From Alistipes sp. (GTDB lineage: Bacteria; Bacillota; Clostridia; Oscillospirales; Ruminococcaceae): a stretch of 64,000 bases of DNA. Position numbers and translations under genes: made by a program. Positions 8,884-45,913 of the stretch are shown piece by piece. Position 1 is the stretch's first letter. Each line of letters opens with the position of its first letter. The stretch spans positions 27,813 to 91,812 of the forward strand of contig JAMPAJ010000002.1 in NCBI GenBank assembly GCA_023667265.1. Reading direction: 5' to 3'. Under the pieces are notes generated by a model that ran no database searches, was not told the origin of the DNA, and saw only the letters and a program-made list of their open reading frames with translations.

Positions 8884-8889
8884 GATTAT

Positions 8890-8918: not shown

Positions 8919-9059
8919 TATACAAAAGTGCACTAAACTGAACTTTTGTTCAAATCAGTAGTTTTTTCTTGCCTTCGGAAGCAAACAAAATATTAATACG
9001 TTATTTCAATTTAATTATTTACAATTCCGAAATTTAACATTTTGCTTTTTAAGCCTTTG

Positions 9060-10499: not shown

Positions 10500-10541
10500 A
10501 TAATTCCCCTTATAGCCTGTCCGGCATCTTATTTTTGCTTA

Positions 10542-11297: not shown

Positions 11298-11299
11298 TT

Positions 11300-25812: not shown

Positions 25813-25832
25813 ATTATCGCCTCCAATGAAAA

Positions 25833-25860
25833 ATGTCTGTAGATTTTTCTCTACAGACAT
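25833..25860 (-). terminator. Terminator between recombinase 3 and the amidoligase gene
   Basis: ATGTCTGTAGA / TCTACAGACAT, an 11-bp perfect stem with a 6-base loop, then TTTTTC on the minus strand. Confidence 0.82.
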
Positions 25861-25871
25861 CTTGATTTTTA

Positions 25872-27488
25872 TTATGCAATATCGGTTTTCACTTCGTAAC
25901 CGCCCTTGAAAATAACCAGTATTTCGGTCTTTGAGAGTACCTTTACACACTCTATAAGCTTGCGTATCAGCACATTATCAAAGGTTTCCAGTTCAAACTT
26001 TTCATGCTCTATCATATCCATGATCTTATCGAGTTTTTTCTGAGTTTCGGCAGAGGTTTTATTCTGTGATTTCAGAGTTTCCAACCTCTCGGTCAGCTGC
26101 TGTTCCTCCTGATACAGCCTTGAAAATTCGCTGTCAAGCTTGTCCTCATCGCAGCCTCCGGAGGCTATCAGTCCTACCAGATCATTCCTCGCTTGGTCTA
26201 TTTCTTTCAGACGATTTTCGATGCCGATTATTTCTTCCTGCCCCTGACATTCCAGCACCGTTCCGATATTTGCTTTCAGAATTCTTGCAATATCGTCTCG
26301 GCAGCAGTAATAATTATTTATCGCTCGGATTATGCCCTTGTGAAGATTTTCTTCTTTGATCGTCGGCGAATCGGGACAATATTTTTTGCCATGTTCAAGG
26401 CGGCTGATACACCGCCAGACGACCTGTTTTTTCCCTCTTGCAGACCAAGTAGTTCGACGATATAGAGTACCGCAATGACCGCATATTAACAGCTCTGTAA
26501 GCGCATATTTACTGGAGTATTTGCCCTGTTCGGTAACAGTTTTGTCGCTGATTTTACGCTTTGAACTTCGCCTTGCAAGCTCCTGCTGAACCCGATTAAA
26601 AGTATCTCTGTCGACTATCGGGACGTGATGATCTGTTACCAGATACATGGGGCGTTCTCCATGATTTTTCACGATTTTGTGTGTTATGCAGTCGACTGTA
26701 AACGACTTCTGGAGCAGTGCGTCGCCAACATATTTTTCATTTTGCAGAATCCTTGAAATCGTATTTGAACGCCACTCGATTTCGCCGTATTTATTGAGTT
26801 TGCCGAGGCTTTTCAGCGTAATTGCAATCTCTTTCATAGAGTAGCCGTCGAGGAATAGCTTGAAAATCATCCGCACCGTTTCCGCTTCTTCGGGAACGAT
26901 TTCCGGCTGTCCGTCATCGCCTCTTTTGTAGCCAAGCAGATGCTTGTATTGGAACTGAACCTTGCCCTCACGGTAGGCTTTTTCCTTGCCCCAGCTGACA
27001 TTTTTACTTATCGATTCCGATTCCGCTTGAGCGAAACTGCCATATAATGCAATCATAAATTCGCTTGTCATGGTCAAGGTATTGATGTTTTCTTTTTCAA
27101 AAATCACGCCGATTCCGAGGTTTTTGAGCTGCCTTACATATTCAAGGCAATCCACGGTATTTCGGGCGAATCTTGATATCGACTTGGTGATCACCAGATC
27201 AATTTTCTTGTTTTTGCACATACGGATCATGCGGTTGAACTCTGTTCTTTTCTTGGTCTGCGTACCGCTTATGCCTTCGTCTGCGAAAATTCCGGCAAGA
27301 GTCCATTCCTTTTTTCTGTTGATCAAGTCGGTGTAATATGCGATTTGAACTTGATAACTGTTCTGTTGTTCCTCTTGTTCAGTTGACACCCTACAATAGG
27401 CTGCCACTCTTAATTGGTGATACTTATCACGGTTTATTTCCGTCTGCGCTTTCGCCGGAATTATCGTCACATTTGAAGCTATGCTCAT
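25872..27488 (-). CDS. Large serine recombinase (third of three)
   Basis: About 538 residues. The N-terminal resolvase domain has the catalytic Ser in AAYCRVSTEQEEQ and the helper motif KSISRFARNTVDCLEYVR; a recombinase domain (about 195-300), a zinc-ribbon CGHCGTLYRRT and a long coiled coil (about 420-500) follow. Such enzymes integrate and excise mobile elements. The ATG at 27488 is preferred over a GTG at 27497. The gene overlaps the upstream recombinase gene by about 60 bases, so the two are translated together. Confidence 0.92.
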   Translation of the reverse strand: MSIASNVTIIPAKAQTEINRDKYHQLRVAAYCRVSTEQEEQQNSYQVQIAYYTDLINRKKEWTLAGIFADEGISGTQTKKRTEFNRMIRMCKNKKIDLVITKSISRFARNTVDCLEYVRQLKNLGIGVIFEKENINTLTMTSEFMIALYGSFAQAESESISKNVSWGKEKAYREGKVQFQYKHLLGYKRGDDGQPEIVPEEAETVRMIFKLFLDGYSMKEIAITLKSLGKLNKYGEIEWRSNTISRILQNEKYVGDALLQKSFTVDCITHKIVKNHGERPMYLVTDHHVPIVDRDTFNRVQQELARRSSKRKISDKTVTEQGKYSSKYALTELLICGHCGTLYRRTTWSARGKKQVVWRCISRLEHGKKYCPDSPTIKEENLHKGIIRAINNYYCCRDDIARILKANIGTVLECQGQEEIIGIENRLKEIDQARNDLVGLIASGGCDEDKLDSEFSRLYQEEQQLTERLETLKSQNKTSAETQKKLDKIMDMIEHEKFELETFDNVLIRKLIECVKVLSKTEILVIFKGGYEVKTDIA

Positions 27489-28368
27489 GATTTTCACCTT
27501 TCCTTTCCGTTATATTTTTGATATGTATCCCATTGATAAACTCAACTTCTATGGTACAAAAATGGCTTATCCAAATCCTGTTTACACAGGACTTAAACAA
27601 GCCAATATCCAAGCTGTTTAATTGTTCATGTTTTTCAAGCAAACTGAGTAGCTGTGCCGTTTTCTGAGGATTATCATCATAGGTGCAGCAGTCGTATTTC
27701 ATCTCGGCAAGCCTGAAAATTTCCGACTTTACTCGATCAAAATCAACTTGCGGAGAATCCGTCATCTGACTGATCTCGTTCTGCTTGCGGATCACATCAG
27801 CAGTAGGGGAATACACGCTTATCTCGCTGCTTGATTCTATCAAATTCGGGTTAATAATGACTGTATTCATAACCGTCAGAACTGCTCCGATGATCATCTG
27901 ATCTGTAAGCCGATATTCAAGTTTATAACAATCGGGATTTCTGCAATCCCATTTTGCACAGTGGCTGTTACCGCCTATCCTTGACAATCTGTGACCGCAT
28001 TCGGAGCAGTATGTACGGTTTCTTATTTCCTGTAATTTCTCTGAAATCATGCACACGGAGGTTGCTTTTGACACTCTTTTTTCATTTGCCTGATTGAAGA
28101 ATTTTTCGCTGATTATCTGCGGATATTTGTCATTGCCAAGATACTTTTCATTCTCGATTATCCGCTTGACCATATTCTTATTCCAACGGTCTAAATCCTC
28201 GTTGTACTTGATTTTCTCGGACTCCATTAGCTTTGCAATCTGCATTAAGCTGCTGCCGTTCAGATACTCTTCAAATATTTTTACGACCGCTTTTGATTCT
28301 GTAAAATCGACTGTAATCTTGCCGTTTTTCATGCAGTAACCGAACGGTATTGTGCGATTTTTAGACAT
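27427..28368 (-). CDS. Serine recombinase-like protein lacking the catalytic domain (second of three)
   Basis: About 313 residues from the ATG at 28368 (AAAGGAG 8 bases upstream). It begins directly with the recombinase DNA-binding domain (IPFGYCMKNGKITVDFTESK ... VKRIIENEKYLGND), then a zinc ribbon with YCSECGHRLSRI and CRNPDCYKLEYR. The resolvase domain with its catalytic Ser is absent and no remnant lies upstream: a terminator and the stop of recombinase 1 are there instead. It may act as a DNA-binding partner or directionality factor for the two complete recombinases. Confidence 0.85.
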   Translation of the reverse strand: MSKNRTIPFGYCMKNGKITVDFTESKAVVKIFEEYLNGSSLMQIAKLMESEKIKYNEDLDRWNKNMVKRIIENEKYLGNDKYPQIISEKFFNQANEKRVSKATSVCMISEKLQEIRNRTYCSECGHRLSRIGGNSHCAKWDCRNPDCYKLEYRLTDQMIIGAVLTVMNTVIINPNLIESSSEISVYSPTADVIRKQNEISQMTDSPQVDFDRVKSEIFRLAEMKYDCCTYDDNPQKTAQLLSLLEKHEQLNSLDIGLFKSCVNRIWISHFCTIEVEFINGIHIKNITERKGENHEHSFKCDDNSGESADGNKP

Positions 28369-28439
28369 TATATCAGCTCCTTTCAACTGACAAGGATACC
28401 ACACTTTTATGTGAAAATCCAGTATCAGAACTAACAAAA

Positions 28440-28473
28440 ATATGCTCCGAAATTTTACTTTTACGGAGCATAT
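28440..28473 (-). terminator. Terminator between recombinases 1 and 2
   Basis: ATATGCTCCG / CGGAGCATAT, 10-bp stem, followed on the minus strand by TTTTTG. Confidence 0.8.
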
Positions 28474-28477
28474 TACA

Positions 28478-29998
28478 TTATATTTTTTCTTTAAATTTTA
28501 AGCCTCCGATCATGTGAAATTCCAACTCATTTTGGTTTATCACAACAATTTTCTCCACGATATTTTCAAACGCCGATTCGTCAAATTCACTTATTGGAAC
28601 ATCTTGCTTTTCAAAGTGATCTATCAGCATTTCGATTTGTTCAAGCGTTTCGTCCTCATCGTCATGATACGTGATTTTCTTCAGTTCCGACTGCAGCTTA
28701 TTCACTTTTGCATTAAGCTCTGTCGTCTGCTCAAGGTACTTCGCATTGTCAAGAAAACCTTTTGTTTTCAGCCTTGCAAGAACGTGTGTCTGCTCTTTGA
28801 GTTTTGCGATTTCTTTGTGAATTTCCATTACATTGGAATTGCCGCTGCAACGCCGTAATTTTAAGTCCTGCAATGCAATTTGCAAGGGAACGAGAATCTG
28901 TTTGTAATTGAACCATAGCTTGCTGTGCAAAGCTATAAATGCGTTATAAAACCGCTGCTCTGAAATTTGTTTTATACTGCAATTCTTAGCGGACGTATTA
29001 TGATTTCGACATTCCCAATATGTGCTGCCGTTGATGTGCTTTATGCGAAACATTGTACCGCATTCTCCGCAGTAAATTTTCTGACTTAGTGGGCAAATAC
29101 ATTTTTTCACTTCAAAAGATCGTGATGACATTAATTGTTGTACCTTGTCAAACTGTTCCTGCAGAATTATGGGGTCATGAGTATTTTCCATATAATATTT
29201 TTCTTCATAGCCGTTATTTATAATTGTTTTGTAGGGAAGTACCGTAGTGGTACACGTTTTATGCCACAATGAATTTCCGGTGTATTTTTCATTCGTCAAA
29301 ATATATCTTACAGCTATGCTTGACCATTTCCTTTTATCCGATTTCTGATTTAATAAATTCGCAATTGCTTCAGTACCCAAACCATTCAAATAGCTGTCGT
29401 AAATAAGCCGAATAATTTTGGCTTCCTCTTCAACAATTATAAGCTGTTTATTTTCTATCCGATAGCCATAGGGAGCATGAGGAAGCACATAAGTCCCGTT
29501 CTGCATTCGCTTCTGAACGCTCCAGCGCATATTCTGCGAAATCGAAGTCGATTCCTCCTGCGCCAGACCGCCCATGATCGTTATCATCATTTCATCGGTC
29601 ATGTTGGTGGTGTCGATATTTTCTTTCTCAAAAAATACCGTAATTCCGAGTGATTTCAGTTCTCTGATATTTTTAAGACAATCTCTCGTATTCCTTGCAA
29701 ATCGGCTGATTGACTTAGTGTAAATCCTGTCGATTTTTCCCTTTCGGCAGTCCTTCATCATGCGCTGAAATTCCTCACGCTTATCATCACGAGTACCTGT
29801 CACGCCCTCGTCGGCATAAATATCGATCAGAATTTCCGTTTCCGAATTTTCAAAAATCTGTCCGTAATACCTCGTCTGAGCCATAAAGGAATTCAACTGA
29901 TCCTCGCTGTCGGAACTTACCCTACAGTACGCTGCACAGCGTATCAGCGTACTTTTTTCTTCTGTTATTGTCGGCTGAATTACTGTAACTGTCGGCAT
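28478..29998 (-). CDS. Large serine recombinase (first of three)
   Basis: About 506 residues from the ATG at 29998, preceded by GGAGGTG at 6 bases. The catalytic domain has CAAYCRVSSDSEDQLNSF with the nucleophilic Ser, then YTKSISRFARNTRDCLKNI and FFEKENIDTTNMTDEMM. The recombinase domain (PYGYRIENKQL, ILTNEKYTGN), a zinc ribbon (YCGECGTMFRIK ... CRNHNTSAKNC) and a coiled coil (about 400-450) follow. Its close similarity in plan to the 25872 gene suggests an old duplication. The three genes together are likely the excision/integration module of a serine-type element. Confidence 0.92.
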   Translation of the reverse strand: MPTVTVIQPTITEEKSTLIRCAAYCRVSSDSEDQLNSFMAQTRYYGQIFENSETEILIDIYADEGVTGTRDDKREEFQRMMKDCRKGKIDRIYTKSISRFARNTRDCLKNIRELKSLGITVFFEKENIDTTNMTDEMMITIMGGLAQEESTSISQNMRWSVQKRMQNGTYVLPHAPYGYRIENKQLIIVEEEAKIIRLIYDSYLNGLGTEAIANLLNQKSDKRKWSSIAVRYILTNEKYTGNSLWHKTCTTTVLPYKTIINNGYEEKYYMENTHDPIILQEQFDKVQQLMSSRSFEVKKCICPLSQKIYCGECGTMFRIKHINGSTYWECRNHNTSAKNCSIKQISEQRFYNAFIALHSKLWFNYKQILVPLQIALQDLKLRRCSGNSNVMEIHKEIAKLKEQTHVLARLKTKGFLDNAKYLEQTTELNAKVNKLQSELKKITYHDDEDETLEQIEMLIDHFEKQDVPISEFDESAFENIVEKIVVINQNELEFHMIGGLKFKEKI

Positions 29999-30070
29999 TT
30001 TGATCACCTCCGTTTCACCAACAAGGATACCACATTTTTCGCCGGAATGGTATCACCAAACTCAATAAAA

Positions 30071-32532: not shown

Positions 32533-35500
32533 CTAGCGTTTATGAGATTTTCTATACTGCGAAGCCCATTTTTGCGATTCGGAGTAATATTGATGTTTGG
32601 GACTAATACTATTAATTTTATTCATTGTATTTGGTCCATTTATAATATCATATTGTTCTAATGCACGTGCCTGATTTCTTGTTAGTCCACTATATTGTAC
32701 ATTAAGTGAAGAGAAATCCTTTCCTTTTTTGTTATGTTGATAAAGTCTTTTATCTATACTTTGTTTTGTTATACCTGTATACACATTCTTTCCACTTTTA
32801 TCAACTCCATAGTACACTTTATTGTTGGATTCCCCTTTATTTAACCATGCTTCAAAACCATTTGATTTGCCTTTAGTTAACGCTTTTGAGGAATCCTTAC
32901 CGGCATCAACGATATTAGAAGCCTTCTTAATATCTTTAGCTGCGTCTGCCGCATCAAGAAGATCGTCGCCTTTACTGATAACATTTTTAGCCGTTTTAGC
33001 TGCCTTAGAGGCATCCCCTAATTTGTCAGTTGCCCTATAGATGTCATATGCTGCACCAACAGCTTCTGTTCCTACCTCAATACCGGCTTTTAATCCGGCG
33101 CTTGGAACACCCGGAATAAGCAGTCCTGCTACATCTGCTAAAACGTCAACAGCGCCCATCGGCGTAGGTTCTACAATCAACGCTACAACATCAACCGCAA
33201 GACTTGCTATATCAAACAGCGTGTCGAGGAAATGACCTGTGGAATCCGTACCAATAATCGGATTATTGTGACAGTAAGTATAAAGGTTAAGACTTAAAGG
33301 TGAAGAATTATCGCCGGCATATGAATCGCGGCTAATGAATCGACCTGTTGACGGATCATAATATCTTGCTCTAAGGTAAATTGTACCCGTTTCGGTATCG
33401 TAATATTCACCGCAGTAACGGAACGCATTTGTATCGTTTTTGTCGATATTCTTTTCAACGCCGAAAGCGTCGTAGGTATACTTCTTAGTAACCTTACCGT
33501 CTTTATCAGTAAGATTTACGACATCGCCGTGAGCGTTCTGAGTATAGTAAGTATACTCGGACTTATCGCCGTTTCTGTAGTTGTACTTAGCGACAAGATT
33601 TGTGCCGCGGATATAGCAGTCAGCTTCATAGAACTGGTTGTCGATAACGTCAGCAACGATCTGCTTACCGCCGTCCCAGACATGATTTATTCTCTGTCCA
33701 TCAACAGTCTTTTCATATCTCAGACCGTCAACATTGTAAGCATAGCTTGCAGTCGTATCTCCATCGGTAAATCCGATAAGCTGATTCAGACCGTCATAAG
33801 TGTTAGTTTCAGTCTTGCCGTCTGCAACTTTCTTGATCTGATTACCGTTTTTGTCATAGGTGTAAACTGTCTGCTCGACTTTATCATTCTTATCCAGAGG
33901 ATTTTTGCCGTCATTCTTGACAGTTTTGGTTTCCTTCTGAAGCAGAGCGGTATATTTACCCTGAGCGTCATTGTAGCTGTACTCGGTGACATAATCCTCA
34001 GTACCGGTCGCTGTCATCTTAGAGCGGTTGCCGTAATCGTCATACTCATATGCATAGGTATCAGTTGTGTTGTTGCCAACCTTGACAGACTCCTCAGTCA
34101 GTCTTTTCAGACTGTCGTATTCATATGACGTTGATTCTATTATACCACTTTCATTGCGTACTTTGCAAGCGTCAGAACCGTCTAAATAATAGGAATATTC
34201 ATAGCTTGAAATTGTGGAATTTTCCTTTTTATTGGTGATTCCGATTACTTTGTTGTTATTATTGTAGGTATAGGTCGAAACCACGCCGTTTGCAAGAGTT
34301 TCAGACTTTTTGTTACCATTTGCGTCATAGGTGTAAGATACAGTTTCATTTCCTGATTCTTTGACCTTGACAATACGCATCTCATCGTCATATTCATAAG
34401 TTTTGTCTGAATAGAACAGCAAATGCGTCTGACCTGTAAGTTCTTCTCTTGCATACTTTGAAATACCTTCATAGAAGTAACCTCTGAAGATGGAATAGCC
34501 GTTGCCGTCAGATTCTGTTTCGGTATACTTTCTGCCAAGAGCATCATAACTTATATCTGTAGTCAGCTCGTTGCTTACAGATTTTGTAACTCTTCCCATG
34601 CTGTCGTAAGTATAGGACTTGCTGACATTTTTGGAGGAATCTTTTGAATTTACAGTATTTGCCGTAAGCACACGATTGAGCGCGTCGTAAGTGTTTTCTG
34701 TAATGTTTTCGTTTGCATCCTTGTTTGTAAGAACATTGCCGTTCAGATCGTAGGTTATCGTACCCGAATTATAACCGGCGCTGTCCTTTGTACGAACAAG
34801 ATGATTGCGTGAATCATAAACATACTCTGTTTTCAGATATGAGGTATCGTTGTCAGACGACAGACCTGTACGCATTTCTGTCTGGATACCGTCATGGTTA
34901 TAGAAATACTGAGTAATATTCTTTTCGTTTGAACCTGTTCCACTGAGAATTACTTTTGAAAGCAATCCAAGACCGTTGTACTCGTTCTGAGTAATACTGT
35001 ACTTTGCGGTACTTGAATCTTCCTTCTGAACAGTCTGTTTTGTAAGGATTATATTTCCGTTTTTGTCATACTGATTTTCAGTAACAGAATATTTTTCCTT
35101 ACCGTTAAAAGGAGTGTAGGTTTTGCTGACTTTGCGTAAAGTATTATTTACTTCAACTACCGTATTTTCATGCTTTGTGATATTACCCAGCGCATCAGTT
35201 TCACGCGCAGTTTCCCCATTTGCATAATATGCAATTGTACGCTTTACTTTACCGTTTGTCTTTTCATAAACAGGGTTTTCTTTCCAGTCTGCAAGAATCT
35301 CGTTAACTATCTGTTTGTCTGCAGTAATATATGTTTTCTTGATAGTTTTAAGACCGCTGCATGACTTTGAGGAAGAACTATTGATAGCAGTGTAAACATC
35401 AAAGCCGTGACCCTTTACAAACTCATAATCCGTAGAAGTGAGAATTTGCTTTTCTGCTTCTGCATTGGACTTGAAATATGTGGCTTTTTCACGCTGCAAA

Positions 35501-38500
35501 CCGTCGTATTCTGTAACACTGACTGTACCATCAGGATCAATTTTTTCAATAACGTTGCCATAAGCGTCATATTTATAAGATAATACATTTCCGAGTGGAT
35601 CAGTTTGGGTCTTAATCGCATCATTTGGATAATAAGTTGTCAGTGTTCCATGACTCTTATCAGCAGAATAGTTAGGAGCATATTCGGCAATTTTTCTGCC
35701 AAGCTTATCATATTCTGCAATTGTAACTGCAGCTGTTGAATCAGGAGCAGTTCCTTTATCAATAGTTTTTATTACATTGTTGAATTTGTCGTACTCGTAT
35801 TCCTTTACATAGCCCTCGGAACTTGTTTCCTTTGAAACCTGAAGCTGCGAATTATATTCATAACGAGTACCGTGAGCTGGCTTTGAAATTCCGTTTCCGT
35901 AAACCCATTTTTCACTTACAAGACCTTTACCGTTTCCGGATTTGTGGTAGTCATATTCTGTGATATTCCCCTCAGGATCGGTTGTCATATGAATAAGTCC
36001 GATCACTCCGCTGACATAGCTGTCGGCATAGTATTCGTGGCTTGTAATGGCATAGCTGCTTTCATTTGCAGCGAGATAAGTTATAGGATCAAAATTCTTT
36101 GCGGTTACTTTATCAATATCTGTTTGTGAAAGCGTATTCAGACTTTGCGCTTCCTTGACTAAACGAACTCCGTCCTTTTCATATGCCTTGATAGTCGCAT
36201 AGCCCATTTCGTCAACTTCGGCAATCACATTATTTTTACTGTTGTAATTTGCTAAAGTAAATGTGCCGTCGGGATTTGTAGTCTTTGTCACATTGCCGTT
36301 ATCGTCACGGTCATACTTTGTTACATTGCCCATGATGTCAACGCTTTCGGACATTTCGTCATACTTGTTTTCATCGTCAACCATTTTATAGGTGATCTTG
36401 TCAACGTCGTATTTCTGACCGTCTGTTTCAACCTTATTGGTCTTTACAGCATATTTTTCATCATAATCATACTCAAAGGTTTTAACGAGCTTATCGCCGT
36501 CATATTCCTTTGTGCCGGTATGCTTTTTAGCCTTATTATATGTGTATTCCTGCTTTAGACCTGATGCGTTTTTCAGCCAATTAACAGAGCCGTTGTCATT
36601 GTAAACTATCTGATCCGTCATCTCGTCATAGCAGTTTGTGATCTTGCAAAGTCTGCCCTTGCCGTCGTATTCGTACTTTTCAGTACCGTCTGCAACATTT
36701 GTTGCGGAAATCAACTGAAAATCGGAATTGTATTCATAGGTTACAATTCTGTCTGCCGAAGTATCCTCGATTTTTGTTACACGGGAATGCTCTTTATTGC
36801 CGTTGTAAGTGATTTTGTAGGTTCTGCCTGTGGAATCTTTAACTATTCTTTGATCGTTTTTCTTTGCAGAAATTGTAAGCTCATTTCCCTCAGCGTCCTC
36901 GACCTTGTACATTTCTCCGTCTGCATTAAAATAATACTTAGACTGAGCTGCGTTGGTAATAATATATTCGCTGCCCGATTTTGTCATTGTACTGTGAGCA
37001 TTTAAGCATTCATAACCGCCGCTTTCCTTATCCTTGAAAGTCGTATTAGAACCGTCGGGAAGTACAACCTGATAGTAACCCGGCGCAGGAATTACCATTT
37101 TGCTGACGTCAATATTGAAGTCCCAGCCAATACCAAACGAGCCTTCTTCATCGCTTGTTGAGTTATAGGTTCTTACAAAATCGGACTGAACTCCGGGTGA
37201 TTCAACACTCAGATCTGTAAATGATTTTGTGTAGTTTCCGGTTGCGATATGTACGCCGTCGCCCATTTCCCAGCCTTTACGGTAGAGAGTGTAATCCGGT
37301 TCGTCATAAGGTCTCCACCATGGTCTGAACCAATATTTATCCTCCGAATATCCATAAGGGAAAATCAAGCCGTCATTTTCAAAATTGAAAGTACGCTGCG
37401 TATTCAAACTGCCGTCCTCTTCGTCAATATATGTCAGACAGTTATCCCAGAGAATAGTTTGTTTACCGTCTGTATAATAAAACAAAATGCAGTGATCTCC
37501 GGAGGAATATATGGACTTCGGACCTGAATGTTCATTTACTTCCCAGATCGGTCCTCGAAAGTCAATTTCGCCGGCTGTCCATTTTCCTTCCATATCAGTC
37601 AGCGTAATATAGTTCCAATTGCCCCAGATTTCCAGATAATCAGCGGCATCGTTCATCCATATTGTATCATAACAGCCTATCTGACCAAAGTTAAAATCTC
37701 CGCCGATTACCACAGCGCCGCTGTTGAGATACATATTCTGTCCTGCTCCGCTGTTTTGATCAGCGGTACGAAAAACAAGATTGTTCCAAACGTCCAAATA
37801 TCCGCCGTTAATATCCAGAGTTGCTCCACTGTCACCCCAAAACTGCGGCATATCTGTTGTAAATGACATACAGTCATCAACATACAAATTATATCCGTTT
37901 AAATCAAGGTTTGTATCATGCAGATTGAAACTGTATGGAAAATAGCCATCAGATAAAAGTGTCATATTTCTCTTGAAAGCGTGATCCCAATCAAGATCGC
38001 CTTTATATGCATCTGTAAACCACGCTACATCGGTAGGCTCGATTGTACCGTTATCGTCCTTGTCCATGTACTCAAAGTAATTTTCGGAACGACCTCTTTT
38101 CTTTGCGACTTCATTTATTTTTGCAAGGCCTTCTTCATAATCCTTCTTGTCTACGGTTACATCGCCTGTCATTTCATGGTTGTAAATGTAAGCCCATGTA
38201 TTCGGCTGGCGAACACCGCTGAGTTCACTTTCAAATGCCGACAAATATTCCTCGGAAGCGCCGGATTCCTCTAAAATCTCATAATCGGTATCGTTGATAA
38301 CGCCGTCAAGATTTATATCTAAATCCTGAATTTCCTGCGGTAGTGTGTATTCGTCATCACCAAGATTTTCATAAAACGCATTAAATGCGTCAAGATCTGC
38401 TTGACTTATGACATTATCGCCGTCAGCGTCCATACTCGGATTGAAATCGCTGTCGCCACGAGTTTCGCCAAGGCAGCTTTGAACATATGCCGAATCGGCA

Positions 38501-38766
38501 GCGTTGAGTACGTCGTCGCTCCATTGATTGTCGTTTTCTTCATTCCATGTGGTGTCGCCGGGAACAAGCGTTATTGTATCATCTGAATCGCCTGAACCTA
38601 CCATATAAGCACCATTTCCGAAATCCTTCAAATAAAACGGCAGATAACCGTCACATTCAAATTTAACATGATAAACGTCCGAGCCACTTGCCTCTACACT
38701 GAATTCTTCTCCGTCTGCGATTTCCACTGAGTTGATTTCTGCCCAGTCGCCGTTAAAGATACGCAC
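32533..38766 (-). CDS. RHS-repeat polymorphic toxin with dockerin-like N-terminus and GIY-YIG-like tip
   Basis: A 2077-residue frame. From the N-terminus: a beta domain, EF-hand/dockerin-like loops (DADGDNVISQADLDAFNAFY, DINLDGVINDTDYEIL, DKDDNGTIEPTDVAWF), a repetitive beta-helix region (about 265-400), a DUF6531-like start (GDGVHIATGNYTKSFTDLSV), roughly 1200 residues of YD repeats and the RHS core end (YLRARYYDPSTGRFISRDSY). A pretoxin linker leads to a C-terminal domain with VYYGVDKSGKNVYTGITKQS and LTRNQARALEQY, fitting a GIY-YIG (Tox-URI-like) nuclease. The frame continues upstream to a TAA at 38901-38899; the GTG at 38766 has no ribosome binding site and the signal peptide is encoded beyond that stop. 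Confidence 0.85.
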   Translation of the reverse strand: MRIFNGDWAEINSVEIADGEEFSVEASGSDVYHVKFECDGYLPFYLKDFGNGAYMVGSGDSDDTITLVPGDTTWNEENDNQWSDDVLNAADSAYVQSCLGETRGDSDFNPSMDADGDNVISQADLDAFNAFYENLGDDEYTLPQEIQDLDINLDGVINDTDYEILEESGASEEYLSAFESELSGVRQPNTWAYIYNHEMTGDVTVDKKDYEEGLAKINEVAKKRGRSENYFEYMDKDDNGTIEPTDVAWFTDAYKGDLDWDHAFKRNMTLLSDGYFPYSFNLHDTNLDLNGYNLYVDDCMSFTTDMPQFWGDSGATLDINGGYLDVWNNLVFRTADQNSGAGQNMYLNSGAVVIGGDFNFGQIGCYDTIWMNDAADYLEIWGNWNYITLTDMEGKWTAGEIDFRGPIWEVNEHSGPKSIYSSGDHCILFYYTDGKQTILWDNCLTYIDEEDGSLNTQRTFNFENDGLIFPYGYSEDKYWFRPWWRPYDEPDYTLYRKGWEMGDGVHIATGNYTKSFTDLSVESPGVQSDFVRTYNSTSDEEGSFGIGWDFNIDVSKMVIPAPGYYQVVLPDGSNTTFKDKESGGYECLNAHSTMTKSGSEYIITNAAQSKYYFNADGEMYKVEDAEGNELTISAKKNDQRIVKDSTGRTYKITYNGNKEHSRVTKIEDTSADRIVTYEYNSDFQLISATNVADGTEKYEYDGKGRLCKITNCYDEMTDQIVYNDNGSVNWLKNASGLKQEYTYNKAKKHTGTKEYDGDKLVKTFEYDYDEKYAVKTNKVETDGQKYDVDKITYKMVDDENKYDEMSESVDIMGNVTKYDRDDNGNVTKTTNPDGTFTLANYNSKNNVIAEVDEMGYATIKAYEKDGVRLVKEAQSLNTLSQTDIDKVTAKNFDPITYLAANESSYAITSHEYYADSYVSGVIGLIHMTTDPEGNITEYDYHKSGNGKGLVSEKWVYGNGISKPAHGTRYEYNSQLQVSKETSSEGYVKEYEYDKFNNVIKTIDKGTAPDSTAAVTIAEYDKLGRKIAEYAPNYSADKSHGTLTTYYPNDAIKTQTDPLGNVLSYKYDAYGNVIEKIDPDGTVSVTEYDGLQREKATYFKSNAEAEKQILTSTDYEFVKGHGFDVYTAINSSSSKSCSGLKTIKKTYITADKQIVNEILADWKENPVYEKTNGKVKRTIAYYANGETARETDALGNITKHENTVVEVNNTLRKVSKTYTPFNGKEKYSVTENQYDKNGNIILTKQTVQKEDSSTAKYSITQNEYNGLGLLSKVILSGTGSNEKNITQYFYNHDGIQTEMRTGLSSDNDTSYLKTEYVYDSRNHLVRTKDSAGYNSGTITYDLNGNVLTNKDANENITENTYDALNRVLTANTVNSKDSSKNVSKSYTYDSMGRVTKSVSNELTTDISYDALGRKYTETESDGNGYSIFRGYFYEGISKYAREELTGQTHLLFYSDKTYEYDDEMRIVKVKESGNETVSYTYDANGNKKSETLANGVVSTYTYNNNNKVIGITNKKENSTISSYEYSYYLDGSDACKVRNESGIIESTSYEYDSLKRLTEESVKVGNNTTDTYAYEYDDYGNRSKMTATGTEDYVTEYSYNDAQGKYTALLQKETKTVKNDGKNPLDKNDKVEQTVYTYDKNGNQIKKVADGKTETNTYDGLNQLIGFTDGDTTASYAYNVDGLRYEKTVDGQRINHVWDGGKQIVADVIDNQFYEADCYIRGTNLVAKYNYRNGDKSEYTYYTQNAHGDVVNLTDKDGKVTKKYTYDAFGVEKNIDKNDTNAFRYCGEYYDTETGTIYLRARYYDPSTGRFISRDSYAGDNSSPLSLNLYTYCHNNPIIGTDSTGHFLDTLFDIASLAVDVVALIVEPTPMGAVDVLADVAGLLIPGVPSAGLKAGIEVGTEAVGAAYDIYRATDKLGDASKAAKTAKNVISKGDDLLDAADAAKDIKKASNIVDAGKDSSKALTKGKSNGFEAWLNKGESNNKVYYGVDKSGKNVYTGITKQSIDKRLYQHNKKGKDFSSLNVQYSGLTRNQARALEQYDIINGPNTMNKINSISPKHQYYSESQKWASQYRKSHKR

Positions 38767-39222: not shown

Positions 39223-39369
39223 TTAAGACTTGCGGAGCTTTCTTACAGCTTCGGATTCTTTCGGCTGGTGATATCCCAAAACAGAAGCGGAATTTGCGCC
39301 GACTACAGCGCTGATCTTACCTGCTTTGGCAATAGCCTTAAGAACGTTTTCTTTTAAATTCTTTTTCAT
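39223..39369 (-). CDS. agrD: AgrD-like cyclic autoinducer precursor
   Basis: A 48-residue peptide with AGGATG upstream of the ATG. It has an amphipathic N-terminal leader (MKKNLKENVLKAIAKAGKIS), a middle segment NSASVLGY and the charged C-terminal tail HQPKESEAVRKLRKS. The YHQPK junction matches AgrD-type cyclic lactone precursors of Firmicutes, where AgrB cuts before the tail. There is no Cys; the residue four before the Tyr is Ser (SVLGY), so a lactone instead of a thiolactone ring is expected. It starts 2 bases after agrB. Confidence 0.85.
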   Translation of the reverse strand: MKKNLKENVLKAIAKAGKISAVVGANSASVLGYHQPKESEAVRKLRKS

Positions 39370-39371: not shown

Positions 39372-39950
39372 TTATTCACATCCTTTCATTCGAAATCCTG
39401 ATATCACCATTGCAAGCGCAACAAAAAATATTGTCGCATCAAGCAAAACGGTGCATTGGAATTTCTTAATATATGTCAAACAGGTTATCAGCGACATGAG
39501 TACGCATATAACTCTGCTGAGCGCTTTAAATACTTTTCTGCTGCTCTTGCTTAGCTGTTTGTTTTTATTTTCGATCGGTGCAAATGCAAATACAGACAAT
39601 ATCCAAAATGCTGTTATCAAATAATGCAATACGCCGCATATATCGACCGAAACATATTTATTTGCCGCTATAACTATAAATGTTGTGAATGTAAAAATTA
39701 TATTGCATTTTAAATACGATTCAGCGTGATAACCTCCGCATATTTGCCTCAATAATGCAAATATGCCAAAGTATATCAAAGCGGCAGAAAGACTTTTCAT
39801 TACGATCCCCAATATTATCACAATTGCAAATGTAATAATAGTTGAAATCATGATTTCAAAACCATAATTATAAACGTCGGTATCCTTTTTAGAAATCAAT
39901 TTATTTTTCTCTAAACATATGGTTATTTTATTGGCTATTTCAGAAATCAT
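39372..39950 (-). CDS. agrB: AgrB-like autoinducer-processing protease
   Basis: About 192 residues from the ATG at 39950 (AGGTGATAAA upstream). Five or six hydrophobic segments make up most of it. The catalytic region LRQICGGYHAESYLKC carries the His and Cys of AgrB cysteine endopeptidases. AgrB sits in the membrane, cleaves the AgrD tail and helps close and export the ring. It is followed directly by agrD and preceded by a strong promoter with a tandem operator-like repeat. Confidence 0.92.
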   Translation of the reverse strand: MISEIANKITICLEKNKLISKKDTDVYNYGFEIMISTIITFAIVIILGIVMKSLSAALIYFGIFALLRQICGGYHAESYLKCNIIFTFTTFIVIAANKYVSVDICGVLHYLITAFWILSVFAFAPIENKNKQLSKSSRKVFKALSRVICVLMSLITCLTYIKKFQCTVLLDATIFFVALAMVISGFRMKGCE

Positions 39951-39983
39951 TTTATCACCTGCTGTTTCCATATTTTCAGTTCC

Positions 39984-40096: not shown

Positions 40097-41410
40097 TTAT
40101 TTATAATTATGATTTATTTTCAGCAGTATATTAGCTATGAACCAGTTTCCCTCCTCGAAAAATTCCTGCATACCGTCATTTTTCTGAACGGTTTCTATAA
40201 TACTCAATATTCCAAATCCGTGGTGTTCTTTATCTTTTTTCGACGTTTTTAAGGATTTATTATTTTCAAGAACCGAATCTGATATATAATTTTTCATTTT
40301 CACGCTCAAATAATTGCCGATTATTGATATATCCAGCTTGATCGCCGGACTGCTTTCCTTAATTTCGGCTTCAATGGCATTATCAAAAAGATTTGCAAGT
40401 ACAATACACAAATCAACGTCGTCAATTTCAGGCAGTTCGTCCGGAATGCAGCATTTTAAATCTATGCCTTGTTCATTACATTTATTCATTTTTAAATTCA
40501 AAACTGCATTTAAAGCGGAATGATTTGTACAAATACGATTTGGTATCTGATCAATTGTTTTTTCACAAAGTTTTTCAACATAACGTTCAGCTCGTTCATA
40601 ATTATCGTTCTTCATTAAATCAAGGATACACCCCAAATGATTTTTTATGTCATGCTGTATTGTTTCAACCTTCCTGTTCCATACCAACGATTCTTCCATG
40701 CTCTTTTTTTCGCTTTTCATTTGAAGCTTCAGCAATGCGTTTTGCATCCTTTCATTATTTTGAGTGGATATGAGATATGCGACAGCCAATAATAAGCAGT
40801 TTATTAAAATCAGACATACTGTTATAATAATCGATTCAAAACCGGTAATTTTATTTTCTAATTGTATCTTTTCTAACGTAACGCCAATGCCAAATGATAT
40901 CAGAAGAATTGTAAAAATCACAGTACACTGCGATGTACTGAAAATCAATTTTCTTTTGGTTATTAACGTTTCTAAAATATACAAAAATATGCCAAGCAGT
41001 AATTTCGTAAAAAACAGAAGAAAAATACGAAGAGGATTTCTCATTAAAAGAACGTCGTTCATAGATAAATTCAATATATTGGAAACAACTAATGTCACGC
41101 TAATGTTAATTATATATATGCACATATACACAAGTATAACTGTAATACACTGAAACCAGATCTTTCTCCGCAACGCAAGCCTGCAAAACAAAATCAAAAT
41201 GAAGATATATAGAATCGTTAATATACCTTCAATTGTATAAAACCAATTCAGCATAAAAACCAATATGTTATAAACAACATACGAAGAAAAAGTTATACTA
41301 TATTTTTTAAAATTTGTTTGTTCCTTAAAGGATAAAACATTTATTAAAAATGCAAAGATAATCGTACTTTCAACAAGTGTAGCGATCCACTCGGCTATGT
41401 CATAAATCAT
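40097..41410 (-). CDS. agrC: AgrC-like sensor histidine kinase
   Basis: A 437-residue protein. Six or so membrane helices fill residues 5-215. The kinase part has the H-box ETIQHDIKNHLGCILDLMK, an N-box NLFDNAIEAE and a glycine box HGFGILSIIE, all typical of the GHKL (HPK10) family used in peptide quorum sensing. It should bind the cyclic peptide outside and phosphorylate the AgrA-like regulator. Its start overlaps the agrA stop by 4 bases, so the two are coupled. The gene is clearly AT-rich. Confidence 0.93.
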   Translation of the reverse strand: MIYDIAEWIATLVESTIIFAFLINVLSFKEQTNFKKYSITFSSYVVYNILVFMLNWFYTIEGILTILYIFILILFCRLALRRKIWFQCITVILVYMCIYIINISVTLVVSNILNLSMNDVLLMRNPLRIFLLFFTKLLLGIFLYILETLITKRKLIFSTSQCTVIFTILLISFGIGVTLEKIQLENKITGFESIIITVCLILINCLLLAVAYLISTQNNERMQNALLKLQMKSEKKSMEESLVWNRKVETIQHDIKNHLGCILDLMKNDNYERAERYVEKLCEKTIDQIPNRICTNHSALNAVLNLKMNKCNEQGIDLKCCIPDELPEIDDVDLCIVLANLFDNAIEAEIKESSPAIKLDISIIGNYLSVKMKNYISDSVLENNKSLKTSKKDKEHHGFGILSIIETVQKNDGMQEFFEEGNWFIANILLKINHNYK

Positions 41411-42126
41411 ATTAGATTCCCCCTTGACAACTTCAAAAAATCCTCTTTTACTTCTTTTACCTTTCTTCTTGGTATATATAAATTTTCATTGTTTTTTAAT
41501 AATATACAGTCTTTTTCTATCGAAAATATATATCTGTAATTCACTATACAGCTTGCGCTTATTGATATAAAATCAGAAAAACTGATCAGTTCTGTTAACG
41601 AGGTCAACGTGCCGCGCATTTTTAATGTATCTTTCTGATTTCTTATATGAAAAAGCAAATTATGATCCTCGCTTAAAACATATATGATATCTTCTATATT
41701 GATCTGATAAAGTTTTCCTGAACTTACGATTGAAATTTCATGCAAGTGCGACTCTATTTCCTTTAATACCTGATCCAATATATCGGGAAGTTCCTTATCC
41801 ATAACGTTTTTTCTGATAAAGCCCACCGCCTTATATTTAAACGCCTGATATACCAAGTCGTTTCTATTGGTAATATACACTATTGGAATATTTTCATTTA
41901 CTTTTCTTATTTTATCTGAAATTTCAAATCCGGATTGAATGGGCATATCCAAATCTATAAATAGTATTTGAAATTTTAATTTGAAAAAATCAGACAAAAA
42001 TTTAATAGGATCAGTATATACATCAATTTGATGCTTTACATTTGATTTACTTAAGTGGGACTTTATAATTTTGCTTATCTTTTCAACAGCAATTTCTTCG
42101 TCGTCAACAACCGCAATCCGAATCAT
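41407..42126 (-). CDS. agrA: AgrA-like response regulator (LytTR)
   Basis: About 239 residues from the ATG at 42126 (GGAGGTG at 6 bases). The receiver domain has acidic VVDDEE, the phosphoacceptor Asp in LFIDLDMP, and Lys in YKAVGFIRKN. A LytTR DNA-binding domain follows (about 140-238; IVSSGKLYQINIEDIIYVLS, ISASCIVNYRYI). LytTR proteins bind paired direct repeats such as those at 40021-40052. It is the first gene of agrA-agrC, 80-odd bases from one of the inverted repeats that enclose the neighbouring recombinase. Confidence 0.92.
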   Translation of the reverse strand: MIRIAVVDDEEIAVEKISKIIKSHLSKSNVKHQIDVYTDPIKFLSDFFKLKFQILFIDLDMPIQSGFEISDKIRKVNENIPIVYITNRNDLVYQAFKYKAVGFIRKNVMDKELPDILDQVLKEIESHLHEISIVSSGKLYQINIEDIIYVLSEDHNLLFHIRNQKDTLKMRGTLTSLTELISFSDFISISASCIVNYRYIFSIEKDCILLKNNENLYIPRRKVKEVKEDFLKLSRGNLI

Positions 42127-42148
42127 GCAGAACACCTCCGTATTTTCC

Positions 42149-42177
42149 ATAATATCACACATTTACATATATTTCAA
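42149..42177 (-). promoter_or_regulatory. Promoter of agrAC
   Basis: TTGAAA (42177-42172), 17-base spacer, TATTAT (42154-42149) on the minus strand. Confidence 0.6.
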
Positions 42178-42230
42178 GAAATTTTTCGTAAAACCTGTGA
42201 TATAATAGAACGTAGGGAAGTCGTTTTGAC

Positions 42231-42250
42231 TTTCGTCAATTCCGCCAATT
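42231..42250 (+). repeat. Left copy of 20-bp inverted repeat around the tyrosine recombinase
   Basis: TTTCGTCAATTCCGCCAATT, identical to the reverse complement of 43604-43623. Inside it AATT-CCGCC-AATT is itself a small inverted repeat with 5-base spacer, as in recombinase core sites. Confidence 0.85.
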
Positions 42251-42327
42251 AGTAAAATCAAAACCGTAAACAGCGCAGAATAGGGGTTTTTAATGAAACC
42301 AATTACAATGTTTTGACGGCTGACAGC

Positions 42328-43428
42328 TTAAGCGGTAAGTTTTAATCTGTTAACATAATTTTTCTTCATCTGCATGGAAGAATGCACATAACGATTGAGA
42401 GTAATGCTTGCGTCCGCATGACCGAGCAGCTCGCTGAGAGTTTTCGGATCGAATCCATTTTCAATACAAACGGTCGCATAGGTATGGCGAAGCAAATGAA
42501 AGTTTACGTTTCTGATACCGCAGATTTTCAGGATTGCCTTGAAACGGTTCTGCATAGTTCTCGGTTCGGTAGGCTTGCACATTCCGGTAATGATGTAAAA
42601 ATCATTACCTTTTCTTTTTGATTTTAAAATTGCAAGCAAAAAGTCAGGAATAGGAACGGTGCGAATAGAGCTTTTGCTTTTCGGAGAACCGATAACAACC
42701 TCGGATTTACCATGCTTGTTGATTCTCTGAACTGTTCTGCTGACAGAAATTGTTCCGTTTTCAAAATCAACATCGCCCCACTTCAGACCGCATAGTTCAC
42801 CAACACGAAGTCCTGTAAAAAGGCAAAGTAAGACAGAAATATTTGTATTATTCTGATTATGGAGCAGATAATTTTCAAGTCTTTTTCTTTCAAAAGCGTT
42901 CAGCACATCGGTCTGCTTTTTTTCGGTTTTAGGCATGGTAAAATGGGTCTCACGAATCCCATACTCCCTCGCCGCATAAGCTTCAATGCTGCGGTATACG
43001 GTCATAATATCACGGACTGATTTCGCAGAAAGACCGCCTTTGCCGTTGAGTCTGCCGTGATTTAACTTGTGGTGAATGAAATCGTTAAGTTTGCTTGTGG
43101 TCAGATTTTGCATATACTTGCCTCCTAAGATCGGCAGAATATGCTTTGAAATAATGTTCTCATAGTTGGCGTAGCTTGATTCCTTAACACGCAGCTTTGC
43201 GGAGGAAAGCCATTGCTGCGCCGCATCACGGACAGTAAGTTTTATTGCGGAAACGCTGTGATTCTGTTTGATTGAATACACTTCAGACATCTTCTCCTTG
43301 ACCTCTGAAAGCGTTCTTGCATAAACGGACTTATACTTGATTTTTCCGTTATCCTGATAACCCACAGGGACACGTCCCTCAAACCGACCGTCTTTTCGTT
43401 TATATATATTGCTCCCTCTTTTAGCCAT
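42328..43428 (-). CDS. int: Tyrosine recombinase/integrase
   Basis: A 366-residue phage-type integrase: N-terminal arm-binding AP2-like domain (about 1-55), core-binding SAM-like domain (about 60-165) and catalytic domain with Arg in FTGLRVGELCGL, the HLLRHTYAT box, LGHADASITLNRY and the nucleophile Tyr in RYVHSS. GGAGG precedes the ATG. The gene is flanked by perfect 20-bp inverted repeats 78 bases past its stop and 176 bases before its start. It could be the integrase of the conjugative element, or a local invertase, or both. Confidence 0.94.
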   Translation of the reverse strand: MAKRGSNIYKRKDGRFEGRVPVGYQDNGKIKYKSVYARTLSEVKEKMSEVYSIKQNHSVSAIKLTVRDAAQQWLSSAKLRVKESSYANYENIISKHILPILGGKYMQNLTTSKLNDFIHHKLNHGRLNGKGGLSAKSVRDIMTVYRSIEAYAAREYGIRETHFTMPKTEKKQTDVLNAFERKRLENYLLHNQNNTNISVLLCLFTGLRVGELCGLKWGDVDFENGTISVSRTVQRINKHGKSEVVIGSPKSKSSIRTVPIPDFLLAILKSKRKGNDFYIITGMCKPTEPRTMQNRFKAILKICGIRNVNFHLLRHTYATVCIENGFDPKTLSELLGHADASITLNRYVHSSMQMKKNYVNRLKLTA

Positions 43429-43522
43429 AAAAATCCTCCCGTTCCGACTGAAATGTGACGGTTTAAAAGCTTGAAATTTTGCATTTCAACCCACTTTTCA
43501 GCTTTAATTTTTCAAAAAACAC

Positions 43523-43550
43523 TTTACATTTACAAAAATTGTGCTATAAT
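43523..43550 (+). promoter_or_regulatory. Outward-facing promoter inside the inverted-repeat segment
   Basis: TTTACA (43523-43528), 16-base spacer, TATAAT (43545-43550), pointing right, away from the recombinase and out across the right repeat. No plus-strand gene follows. Confidence 0.65.
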
Positions 43551-43603
43551 AATCATATATTATCATTAAATTCGCTCGAAAATTGTCAAAAACCGCCTTC
43601 ATC

Positions 43604-43623
43604 AATTGGCGGAATTGACGAAA
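43604..43623 (-). repeat. Right copy of 20-bp inverted repeat around the tyrosine recombinase
   Basis: Perfect 20/20 inverted match to 42231-42250; identity stops exactly at both ends. The two copies enclose 1.35 kb holding only the recombinase gene and a promoter. Confidence 0.85.
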
Positions 43624-43667
43624 AAAGCACACCATTAAAATTGATGTGCCTGTTTTATATAACGAAA

Positions 43668-43703: not shown

Positions 43704-44123
43704 CTATTTTATTTCAATGCGTTTGGTTTTAGGCTGCTCCTTTTCTTTCTTGGGCAAAGACAGCCTTAAAATACCGTTGGTGTATTCCGCGTCGATAGCG
43801 CTTTCATCGATATTCGAAATATCAAAGCTCCTGCAGTATGAGCCGCAGCTTCTTTCTCTGCGGATATACTCTCCGGCGTCGTTTTTCTCATCGTTTTCAA
43901 TTTTATGCTCTGCGCACAAAGTAAGCGTACTGCCGTTAATATCTATCCTGATATCGTTTTTGTCAAAACCGGGCATTTCGCACTCAAGAAGATATCTATT
44001 TCCTTCGTCCCTGATATCTGTCCTGCAGCGACCCGATGCTCCAAATCCTCTGAAAAAATCCTTTTCAAAATCTCTGAACGGATTCCAAATATCGTTTCTT
44101 TCATATGGTGTTAATCCAAACAT
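43704..44123 (-). CDS. Small heat-shock protein, Hsp20/alpha-crystallin family
   Basis: About 139 residues from the ATG at 44123, which has AGGAGGG 8 bases upstream. The alpha-crystallin domain (about 35-128) includes CRTDIRDEGNRYLLECEMPG, the family signature phrase MPGFDKNDIRIDI and the terminal ILRLSLPKKE strand. Such proteins hold unfolding proteins in the cytoplasm. It is the last gene of the relaxase-Ku-ligase-Hsp20 run, 44 bases after the ligase stop, so it may be element cargo. Confidence 0.93.
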   Translation of the reverse strand: MFGLTPYERNDIWNPFRDFEKDFFRGFGASGRCRTDIRDEGNRYLLECEMPGFDKNDIRIDINGSTLTLCAEHKIENDEKNDAGEYIRRERSCGSYCRSFDISNIDESAIDAEYTNGILRLSLPKKEKEQPKTKRIEIK

Positions 44124-44167
44124 AATAAAATCCCTCCTACACTTTATTATTGTATTTTTATAAATCA

Positions 44168-45109
44168 TTATTCGTTACAAGTACATTCTTCCGGCAATTT
44201 ATCTTCTCTAAGCCCTTTAAATACGGGCTGCCGCATACCTCCGCTTTCGGTTTTCATCATGTATTTGACTGTACACACCAGTTCCGATTTTACCCATACA
44301 GCATTTTCATTTCCTTGGGGAACTTCTGAAAACGGACAGCTTGTTCTGTCAAGGAATTTGATTTTCCGGAACGGATCGCCGCCCACTCCCAGAGTAACAT
44401 GACCCTTGTAAACAAGCCGGTTTTTACGGTACTGCCCAAGGATAACGCTGTTCATATTATTTTCTTTGGGAACATAACCGAGAATAACAAAGTCGTCGTC
44501 CTGCATATACTTGATTTTTATCCAGTCCTTTGTACGCTTATCAAAGTAATATTTGCTGTCCTTACGTTTTGCAACGATACCCTCCAATTCCTGCCGTTTT
44601 GCAAGCTCATAAAAAGCCGTACCGTTTTTCTCGATAAATCTTGATATTGCAAATTTACTGTTTTCAAATTTTATTGCTTTCTGCAAAAGTTCCTTTCGCT
44701 CTGTCAACGGCAGATCTGTGACTTGCCTGTCATCGAAATAAATAACGTCGAATGCCGTAAAACAGGTGGGATACTTATTTGCAGCCATATCGATTTTAAC
44801 GGGATTACTCATCATACTGCGTTTCTGAATTTCAAAAAAATCCGGCTTACCGTCCTTTATAACCGCAAGTTCTCCGTCCAGAATACAGCGGACTCTGACA
44901 TTTTTGTAAATCTCGGCAAGCTCCGGTACTTTTGGCAGCATTAAAATATTCCGCTTGTTTTTCAGAATAGTTTTATCATTGTCAAGATATGCGATACATC
45001 GTTCGCCGTCGAGCTTCAGCTCGTAGATATAATCATCGCTGTCAAAGGGTTGCCCCTCCGTACCGATAAGCATAGGCTTGATATTTTTGGTTTTCCAGAT
45101 ATCAGTCAT
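44168..45109 (-). CDS. ligD: ATP-dependent DNA ligase, LigD ligase type
   Basis: A 313-residue stand-alone ligase. Motif I is ELKLDGERCIAY with the nucleotidylated Lys at residue 32; motif III is TCFTAFDVIYF, motif IV LEGIVAKR and motif V WIKIKYM. A C-terminal OB-fold (about 205-310) is present. The polymerase and phosphoesterase domains of larger LigD proteins are absent. With Ku it should seal double-strand breaks by end joining. It overlaps the Ku gene by 8 bases, so the pair is translated together. Confidence 0.94.
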   Translation of the reverse strand: MTDIWKTKNIKPMLIGTEGQPFDSDDYIYELKLDGERCIAYLDNDKTILKNKRNILMLPKVPELAEIYKNVRVRCILDGELAVIKDGKPDFFEIQKRSMMSNPVKIDMAANKYPTCFTAFDVIYFDDRQVTDLPLTERKELLQKAIKFENSKFAISRFIEKNGTAFYELAKRQELEGIVAKRKDSKYYFDKRTKDWIKIKYMQDDDFVILGYVPKENNMNSVILGQYRKNRLVYKGHVTLGVGGDPFRKIKFLDRTSCPFSEVPQGNENAVWVKSELVCTVKYMMKTESGGMRQPVFKGLREDKLPEECTCNE

Positions 45110-45872
45110 TCTTCACGCCTGCCTGTGCAAGACTCTGCTTGAGAGCCTCCATAATGTCGATAACATTGACATTAACATTCGGAGAGGAGACTTTTATATC
45201 CTTGCCTGCGATCTTCCGTTCGATAATTTCACGTAAACGCACCTGATATTCATCCTTGTACAAACTCGGCTCAAAATCCTTGACCATTGTATTTATAAGC
45301 GTTTTCGCCATAGTCAGTTCAGCTTCGCTTACTTCGGGATGCGTTGACTCCTTTGGAGCTTGCTTTACCTCGTCTGCAAAAAACATGGTTTCGATCAATA
45401 TACCATCGTCTGTAGGGATAAGAGCCAGCAGCTTTTCCTTTGTCCCGATGACCGTCTTGGCGATCGCAACCTTGTTTTCGTCTTTCATTGCTTTTCTGAG
45501 AAGTTCAAACGCTTTATCGCCTCCTGCTTCGGGAACTGCATGATATGTCTTATCATAATAAATCGGGCGAATAGAATTTAAATCGGTAAAATGCAGAATA
45601 TGAATTGTCTTATCCTTTTCGGACTTTGCCTTTTCAAAATCCTCGTCCGTCATAATTACAAATTTGTCTTTGTCGTACTCAAAGCCTTTTACGATATCCT
45701 TTGAGGAAATCTCCTTGCCGCATGAAGCGCAGACTTTTTTGTACTTTACTCTGCTGCCGTCCTCTCGGCAAAGCTGATTGAAGTGAATATCGTTATCCTG
45801 CGTTGCCGTATACAATCCAACCGGAATGTGAACCAAGCCAAATGAAACAGCGCCTCTGTGTGATACTGCCAT
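45102..45872 (-). CDS. ku: Ku protein for non-homologous end joining
   Basis: About 256 residues from the ATG at 45872, which lies 6 bases after GGAGGTG. The bacterial Ku core is complete: SHRGAVSFGLVHIPVGLYTA, the ring-forming CREDGSRVKYKKVCASCGKE, FVIMTDEDFEKA and the C-terminal EIIERKIAGKDI. Homodimers thread onto DNA ends and recruit LigD. The gene begins 41 bases after the relaxase stop, which puts an NHEJ set inside a conjugation operon. NHEJ genes are uncommon in this bacterial group. Confidence 0.95.
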   Translation of the reverse strand: MAVSHRGAVSFGLVHIPVGLYTATQDNDIHFNQLCREDGSRVKYKKVCASCGKEISSKDIVKGFEYDKDKFVIMTDEDFEKAKSEKDKTIHILHFTDLNSIRPIYYDKTYHAVPEAGGDKAFELLRKAMKDENKVAIAKTVIGTKEKLLALIPTDDGILIETMFFADEVKQAPKESTHPEVSEAELTMAKTLINTMVKDFEPSLYKDEYQVRLREIIERKIAGKDIKVSSPNVNVNVIDIMEALKQSLAQAGVKND

Positions 45873-45913
45873 TGCTAACACCTCCGTTTTTATTATTGGA
45901 TTTTCATGAGTTG

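Follow-up and report, generated by a model that had tools for sequence, protein, structure and literature searches.

A putative self-carried promoter inverton beside an agr/RHS cassette in a probable conjugative element

The recombinase segment and its host element

The window, by which we mean the whole stretch of 64,000 nucleotides analysed here, contains a set of signalling genes on the minus strand, comprising an agrA-like response regulator with Response_reg and LytTR domains (41407..42162), an agrC-like sensor kinase with a HATPase_c_5 domain (40097..41410), and agrB (39372..39971; AgrB, PF04647, E 1e-34). Since the Pfam matches place AgrB, a sensor kinase and a LytTR regulator together in one operon, these genes were classified as an agr quorum-sensing operon. 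A reading frame of 48 amino acids without Pfam match (39223..39369, minus strand) is a candidate agrD signal-peptide precursor from its position beside agrB only. Downstream of the agr genes lies, on the same strand, the gene of an RHS/YD-repeat protein of 2077 amino acids (32533..38766), presumed to be an antibacterial effector. All of these genes are located to the left of a 1,393-bp segment that encodes a tyrosine recombinase, while Hsp20, an ATP-dependent ligase, Ku, a MobL relaxase, a TraG/VirB4-like ATPase, TrbL and a type IV coupling protein are encoded to its right. At 25872-30007 there are two full serine recombinases, together with a third gene in which the Recombinase domain stands alone. 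Given these mobilization and transfer genes and the serine recombinases around the segment, the surrounding DNA is most likely a conjugative element to which the tyrosine recombinase is internal. A putative amidoligase gene (24949-25950; PF12224, E 6e-61) adjoins the serine recombinases at the presumed element edge. The Hsp20, ATP-dependent DNA ligase and Ku genes occupy 43704-45881, between the segment and mobL; three related elements (L055, L057 and L113) are without them, homology resuming at the mobL 3' end within about 60 bp of the arm, and the block may represent a mobile end-joining repair set.

The recombinase (366 amino acids; 42328..43428, minus strand) matches Phage_integrase (PF00589, E 2e-28) and Phage_int_SAM_3. 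Residues R208, K250, H311, R314, H337 and Y347, which we take to be the catalytic R-K-H-R-H-Y set, are conserved in at least 113 of 114 aligned recombinase sequences, and the set is complete in the window protein, which the alignment and PF00589 thus identify as a tyrosine recombinase. Its closest solved relatives are the Int proteins 6en0, 6emy and 6emz, presumably Int of Tn1549.

The segment is bounded by a perfect 20-bp inverted repeat, as the preliminary description of this DNA had stated. The left arm, TTTCGTCAATTCCGCCAATT (42231..42250, plus strand), is the putative recombination site on the agrA side, and the right arm (43604..43623, minus strand) is its exact reverse complement. The identity ends abruptly at both edges, and the recombinase gene is the only gene between the arms, accompanied by an outward promoter; the spacers on either side of the gene measure 77 and 175 bp, and no distinct xis-like gene is apparent in them. 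At up to 3 mismatches, the arm 20-mer matches only the two arms in the window, and a chance origin of the pair is excluded because shuffled sequences gave an expectation of 0.01. By eye, the right arm and the adjoining inner sequence read TTCGTCAATT-CCGCC-AATTGATGAA, a near-palindromic core site. TGACGG repeats at 42314-42319 and 43456-43461, which also occur in many close units, flank the recombinase gene inside the segment and are possibly accessory binding sites.

The promoter had been described as TTTACA-N16-TATAAT pointing right, and it was confirmed at 43523..43550 (plus strand) with 11 of 12 consensus positions and an extended TG. The agr operon lies behind this predicted promoter (P_out) in the present orientation, and agrA would lie in front of it after inversion, as had been proposed. 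Three further features bear on its reading. Directly outside the right arm, P_out now faces a terminator-like hairpin with a T run (43625..43651, minus strand), which had been missed. The agr operon has a promoter-like site of its own (TTGAAA-N17-TATTAT; 42149..42177, minus strand, read from 42177 to 42149), so that the raising of agr expression by P_out, as proposed in the preliminary description, is something that we infer. Finally, the agrA flank contains an extended -10-like box, TGATATAAT (42198..42206, plus strand; P_A), likewise missed before, which points into the segment and would give sense transcription of the recombinase gene once the segment is inverted, but not before. Single matches of this kind are not clearly above chance in this region, where 7 promoter-like sites were found against 3.7 expected from shuffles (sd 1.9) and 2 terminator-like sites against 1.7 expected (sd 1.2); their weight lies in their conservation.

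Conservation of arms and promoters among relatives

The exact arm 20-mer was found in six other genome stretches, two of which hold it twice, in inverted copies separated by about 1.4-1.5 kb. A DNA search gave hits in 75 of the 396 family genomes, the majority of them short. Searches with the recombinase protein matched 70 of 396 family genomes at E 1e-70 and 12 of 391 class genomes at 1e-80, and genus-level protein searches with stricter limits matched 4 of 11 and 25 of 125 genomes; these counts include the genome of the window where it was in the set. In viral contigs, neither the exact 20-mer nor a relative of the recombinase was found, and plasmids gave no DNA match. Phage records yielded seven distant recombinase matches (36-42% identity, below E 1e-60). 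From the 116 listed family matches of the recombinase, 76 were examined with their flanks, namely the strongest 71 and five others. All searches together gave 116 entries and, as L023 and L209b are one locus, 115 distinct units, the duplicates L019, L098, L106 and L107 having been left out. One of the contigs, L209, contains two recombinase-agr cassettes in tandem (5178-11569), the second recombinase being matched only from residue 36 and being without a clear arm pair.

The units had not been chosen for having arms. Inverted repeats bracket the recombinase at a score of at least 14 in 101 of the 115, at least 17 in 92 and at least 20 in 71, while in controls that paired a left flank with the shuffled right flank of another unit a score of 14 was reached in 1 of 342. 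The remaining 14 are without a clear arm pair, and several of these are truncated or lie at contig ends. This result bears on the alternative already named in the preliminary description, according to which the recombinase is the integrase of the conjugative element and one arm its attachment site, the other a leftover. The closest solved relatives of the protein are indeed integrases. However, the arms form inverted pairs in 101 of the 115 units, and a search for a third copy in the 45 contigs of the genome found no further 20-mer with fewer than 2 mismatches. Moreover, the recombinase lies between the agr cassette and the genes for MobL, the TraG/VirB4-like ATPase, TrbL and the coupling protein, and the serine recombinases at 25872-30007 are the better integrase candidates. 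We therefore regard this alternative as highly improbable.

Three other places in the same genome resemble the arm 20-mer at 2-3 mismatches. One of them, on contig C42, belongs to a broken recombinase paralogue with agr-like genes behind it, i.e. adjoining another agr set (L005, G000:C42:1-1081). It was rejected as a switch, as its recombinase gene is broken and it has one arm-like repeat with no second arm before the contig start. A further recombinase relative in this genome (L068, on C11) was also rejected, having one arm-like 20-mer with 3 mismatches whose mate was not found.

We then compared the two arms within each of the 21 units with at least 65% recombinase identity and an arm score of at least 14. 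The left arm matches the right arm closely within these units, with 14 mismatches in total, against a mean of 47.8 and a minimum of 32 in 10,000 permutations and 34 when each left arm was compared with the closest relative's right arm; relatedness therefore explains part of the agreement, not all of it. Two mismatches each occur in L055, L060 and L206. Arm positions 1-6 are almost invariant, positions 7-17 are variable with mostly the same change at both ends of a unit, and position 20 deviates on the left in 8 of 21 units and on the right in none. Such a pattern would be expected if strand exchange in the central spacer homogenises what lies between.

Conservation was also found for P_out. 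Among the 91 armed units whose spacer on the 5' side of the recombinase gene has at least 100 bases, 81 have a promoter of at least 10/12 consensus positions in that spacer, compared with 9.8% of simple and 7.3% of dinucleotide shuffles; 10 fall below 10/12. The promoter is kept although the surrounding spacers otherwise diverge. No promoter was found in the 3' spacer of any of the 91 units, a zero that reflects the shorter spacers there (median 103 vs 213), but the difference persists at equal spacer length (54 on the 5' side, 0 on the 3' side). Controls for length and relatedness reduce both the promoter and the arm contrast to some extent. A sense-direction promoter of the recombinase gene reached at least 10/12 in 29 of 91 units, too weak a signal for one to be named. 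On the far side from agr, hairpins of at least 9 pairs were present in 18 of the 29 agr-linked loci, which correspond to 30 entries, compared with 0.7% of shuffles; the window hairpin scores only 7 on this stricter measure. The strict P_A motif occurs in 18 of the 30 agr entries against 0.35 expected from simple shuffles, although these flanks are related by shared ancestry and the entries are not independent; L056 counts as lacking the motif solely because the P_A box was absorbed into its called arm.

Orientation and exchange of neighbours

Both orientations were found among related genomes, agr-linked units included. In 27 of 29 distinct agr-linked units agr lies on the 3' side of the recombinase gene and P_out points away from it (OFF), as it does in the window, while in L066 and L159 agr lies on the P_out side. 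L159 and L222 share the agr-side flank (88% over 132 bp) with its arm and carry the segment (88.5% over 1,413 bp) in opposite orientation. L157, with 44 bp of flank, and L227, judged by eye, agree with the arrangement of L222. On the far side, the flank of L159 shows no homology with those of L222 and L157. In genome G312, two units (L129 and L132) have reciprocally swapped flanks, with 93% identity over 889 bp and 81% over 707 bp. One-sided flank swaps were also seen beside helicase-like and signal-peptidase genes, and 74 pairs keep the same arrangement.

A junction in the assembly of genome G126 agrees with an inverted form. Contig C44 of this genome continues from the right arm into 35 bases of its own left flank in reverse complement and then ends. 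The resulting overlap of 35+20=55 bases is the 55-mer expected if the reads held both orientations. Among the contig ends of G126 that were examined, 9 of 43 (C44 included) recur for exactly 55 bases and none for longer, and 21 of 43 recur for at least 20 bases among the contigs compared; the 55-mer of C44 is also present on C121. The inner side of the junction is the sequence of C44 itself, unlike that of the two other copies in G126. The junction, which comes from the assembly rather than from reads, suggests a recent inversion in G126. With two more near copies in G126, one of them carrying this 35-bp flank as well, the junction may also stem from an exchange between copies or from misassembly. 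Contig breaks near many other units were rejected as a sign of inversion, as repeats explain them too; the overlap length was checked for C44 only.

All of the 22 distinct agr-linked units with at least 65% recombinase identity have one and the same orientation, and flipping there may therefore be rare, strongly biased or lost. The last case would correspond to a locked or decayed inverton, which once flipped, is now fixed in one orientation and has an irrelevant promoter. However, the arms stay matched while the adjoining spacers diverge, enzyme and promoter are conserved, and C44 suggests a recent inversion, which makes a locked state unlikely in our assessment.

The agr genes themselves differ strongly between close elements. 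Among those whose recombinases are 90-97% identical to that of the window (L055-L058, L113, L205 and L206), AgrA, AgrB and AgrC are only about 25-37% identical, the AgrA value of L055 covering 49 residues, and they appear to be hypervariable signalling cassettes. The 1,392-bp segment is identical in L059 and L210, and their mob sides are 96% identical, while the other flank is homologous for only 77 bp; agr is found at this divergent flank in L210 and is absent from L059, which points to a cassette exchange at a sharp boundary. Judged from such comparisons, the signalling cassettes seem to change while the switch that receives them stays fixed, like a socket.

Only in the close clade is agr the common partner, adjoining the switch in 22 of the 24 distinct units that have at least 65% identity. 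Ten non-agr neighbours examined with Pfam comprise surface, lectin, dockerin or repeat proteins, Wzz, a signal peptidase, a restriction methylase and a patatin, and one without match. Helicase-like genes recur on either side of the recombinase (L101, L111, L148, L110, L127 and L161), the ResIII match having been examined for L101 only. In 43 of 101 units the first neighbour on the 3' side of the recombinase gene points away from the segment and the other toward it, in 32 both point away, in 11 the first arrangement is reversed, and 15 are others; as both neighbours point away in 32 units, one ON/OFF logic does not fit all.

The variety of adjoining genes, like the three near copies in G126, would also suit a compact transposable unit, whose inverted repeats would be its termini and whose recombinase would mobilise it in the manner of an insertion sequence. 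We consider this very unlikely. The close copies compared share the agr-side flank and, where the contig continues, the mob side, and therefore travel with the whole element; no target duplication was seen by eye at the edges, and orientation flips within fixed flanks are not expected of such a unit.

Relation to known switches and proposed function

Tn1549/Tn916-type integrases (PDB 6en0 and relatives), the closest solved relatives of the window enzyme, integrate and excise an element; unlike them, the window enzyme sits between its own inverted sites. The Hin flagellar switch has a promoter inside its invertible segment, and Hin is a serine recombinase that differs from the window recombinase in enzyme family, sites and target. 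As in the window, the recombinase gene of this Salmonella switch lies within the segment (PMC5903667). The C. difficile flagellar switch (154 bp, 21-bp repeats; PMC5386303) and the other RecV switches of this species likewise combine a clostridial tyrosine recombinase with repeats of about 20 bp, and expression is phase-variable there (PMC5386303, PMC5903667). RecV acts on several sites, and only one of the switches of the strain described lies near a recombinase, whereas in the window enzyme and sites stand together (PMC5903667). Invertible promoters (invertons) of gut bacteria are known (PMC11892184, PMC8748976) and, like the window segment, have inverted repeats, a promoter inside and a tyrosine recombinase nearby (PMC11892184). 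Inverton group 139, with 33 invertons of which 32 are from Clostridia, is linked with a tyrosine recombinase group; two examples from this group span about 255 bp and therefore cannot hold a recombinase, whereas that of the window lies inside a 1.4-kb segment (PMC11892184). The terms quorum and accessory gene are absent from the main text of that study. A search of mainly open-access literature by titles and abstract openings found neither an agr inverton nor a family from Clostridia whose invertible segment encloses a tyrosine recombinase. Invertible promoters are already known, as are recombinases that lie inside them, while the compact integrase-like unit and its agr target may be new.

Taken together, the agreement of the arms, the conserved P_out, both orientations in relatives and one assembly junction lend strong comparative weight to the DNA switch originally suggested, and its alternative of an attachment site with a leftover is disfavoured. 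The structure is real, and a working switch is the most likely reading of the sequence at this locus. Quite probably, the segment forms a self-carried promoter inverton whose role would be to prime an agr/RHS cassette inside a conjugative element. Inversion at the window locus, the role of the recombinase in it and the effect on agr transcription are what we infer from these comparisons. The recombinase would bind both 20-bp inverted sites, carry out strand exchange in the central spacer that they share (about CCGCC) and so invert the segment together with its own gene. In the observed orientation, P_out would run into the terminator-like hairpin (OFF). In the opposite orientation, P_out would be directed into agrA-agrC-agrB-agrD and then the RHS gene (ON), and a minority of the cells would in this way have their quorum-sensing loop primed.

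A more tentative extension, possible but rather doubtful at present, is a feedback-biased quorum-sensing switch carried by the conjugative element, in which P_out ignites agr and P_A resets the segment to OFF. After inversion P_A would face the recombinase gene, and its sense transcription would drive the segment back to OFF, while in the OFF state P_A would make antisense RNA. If this is true, only a few cells in each population would begin to signal and to produce the effector, and exchangeable agr cassettes would be plugged in beside a conserved switch.

Since enzyme, sites and promoter lie within 1.4 kb, the proposed inverton is directly testable in a laboratory host. If the proposed function is true, one cassette of a conjugative element would unite two levels at which a population is controlled, the random inversion of DNA and the sensing of density, and an integrase-type enzyme would have been reused in Clostridia as a compact promoter switch beside agr, surface-protein, polysaccharide and restriction/helicase genes.
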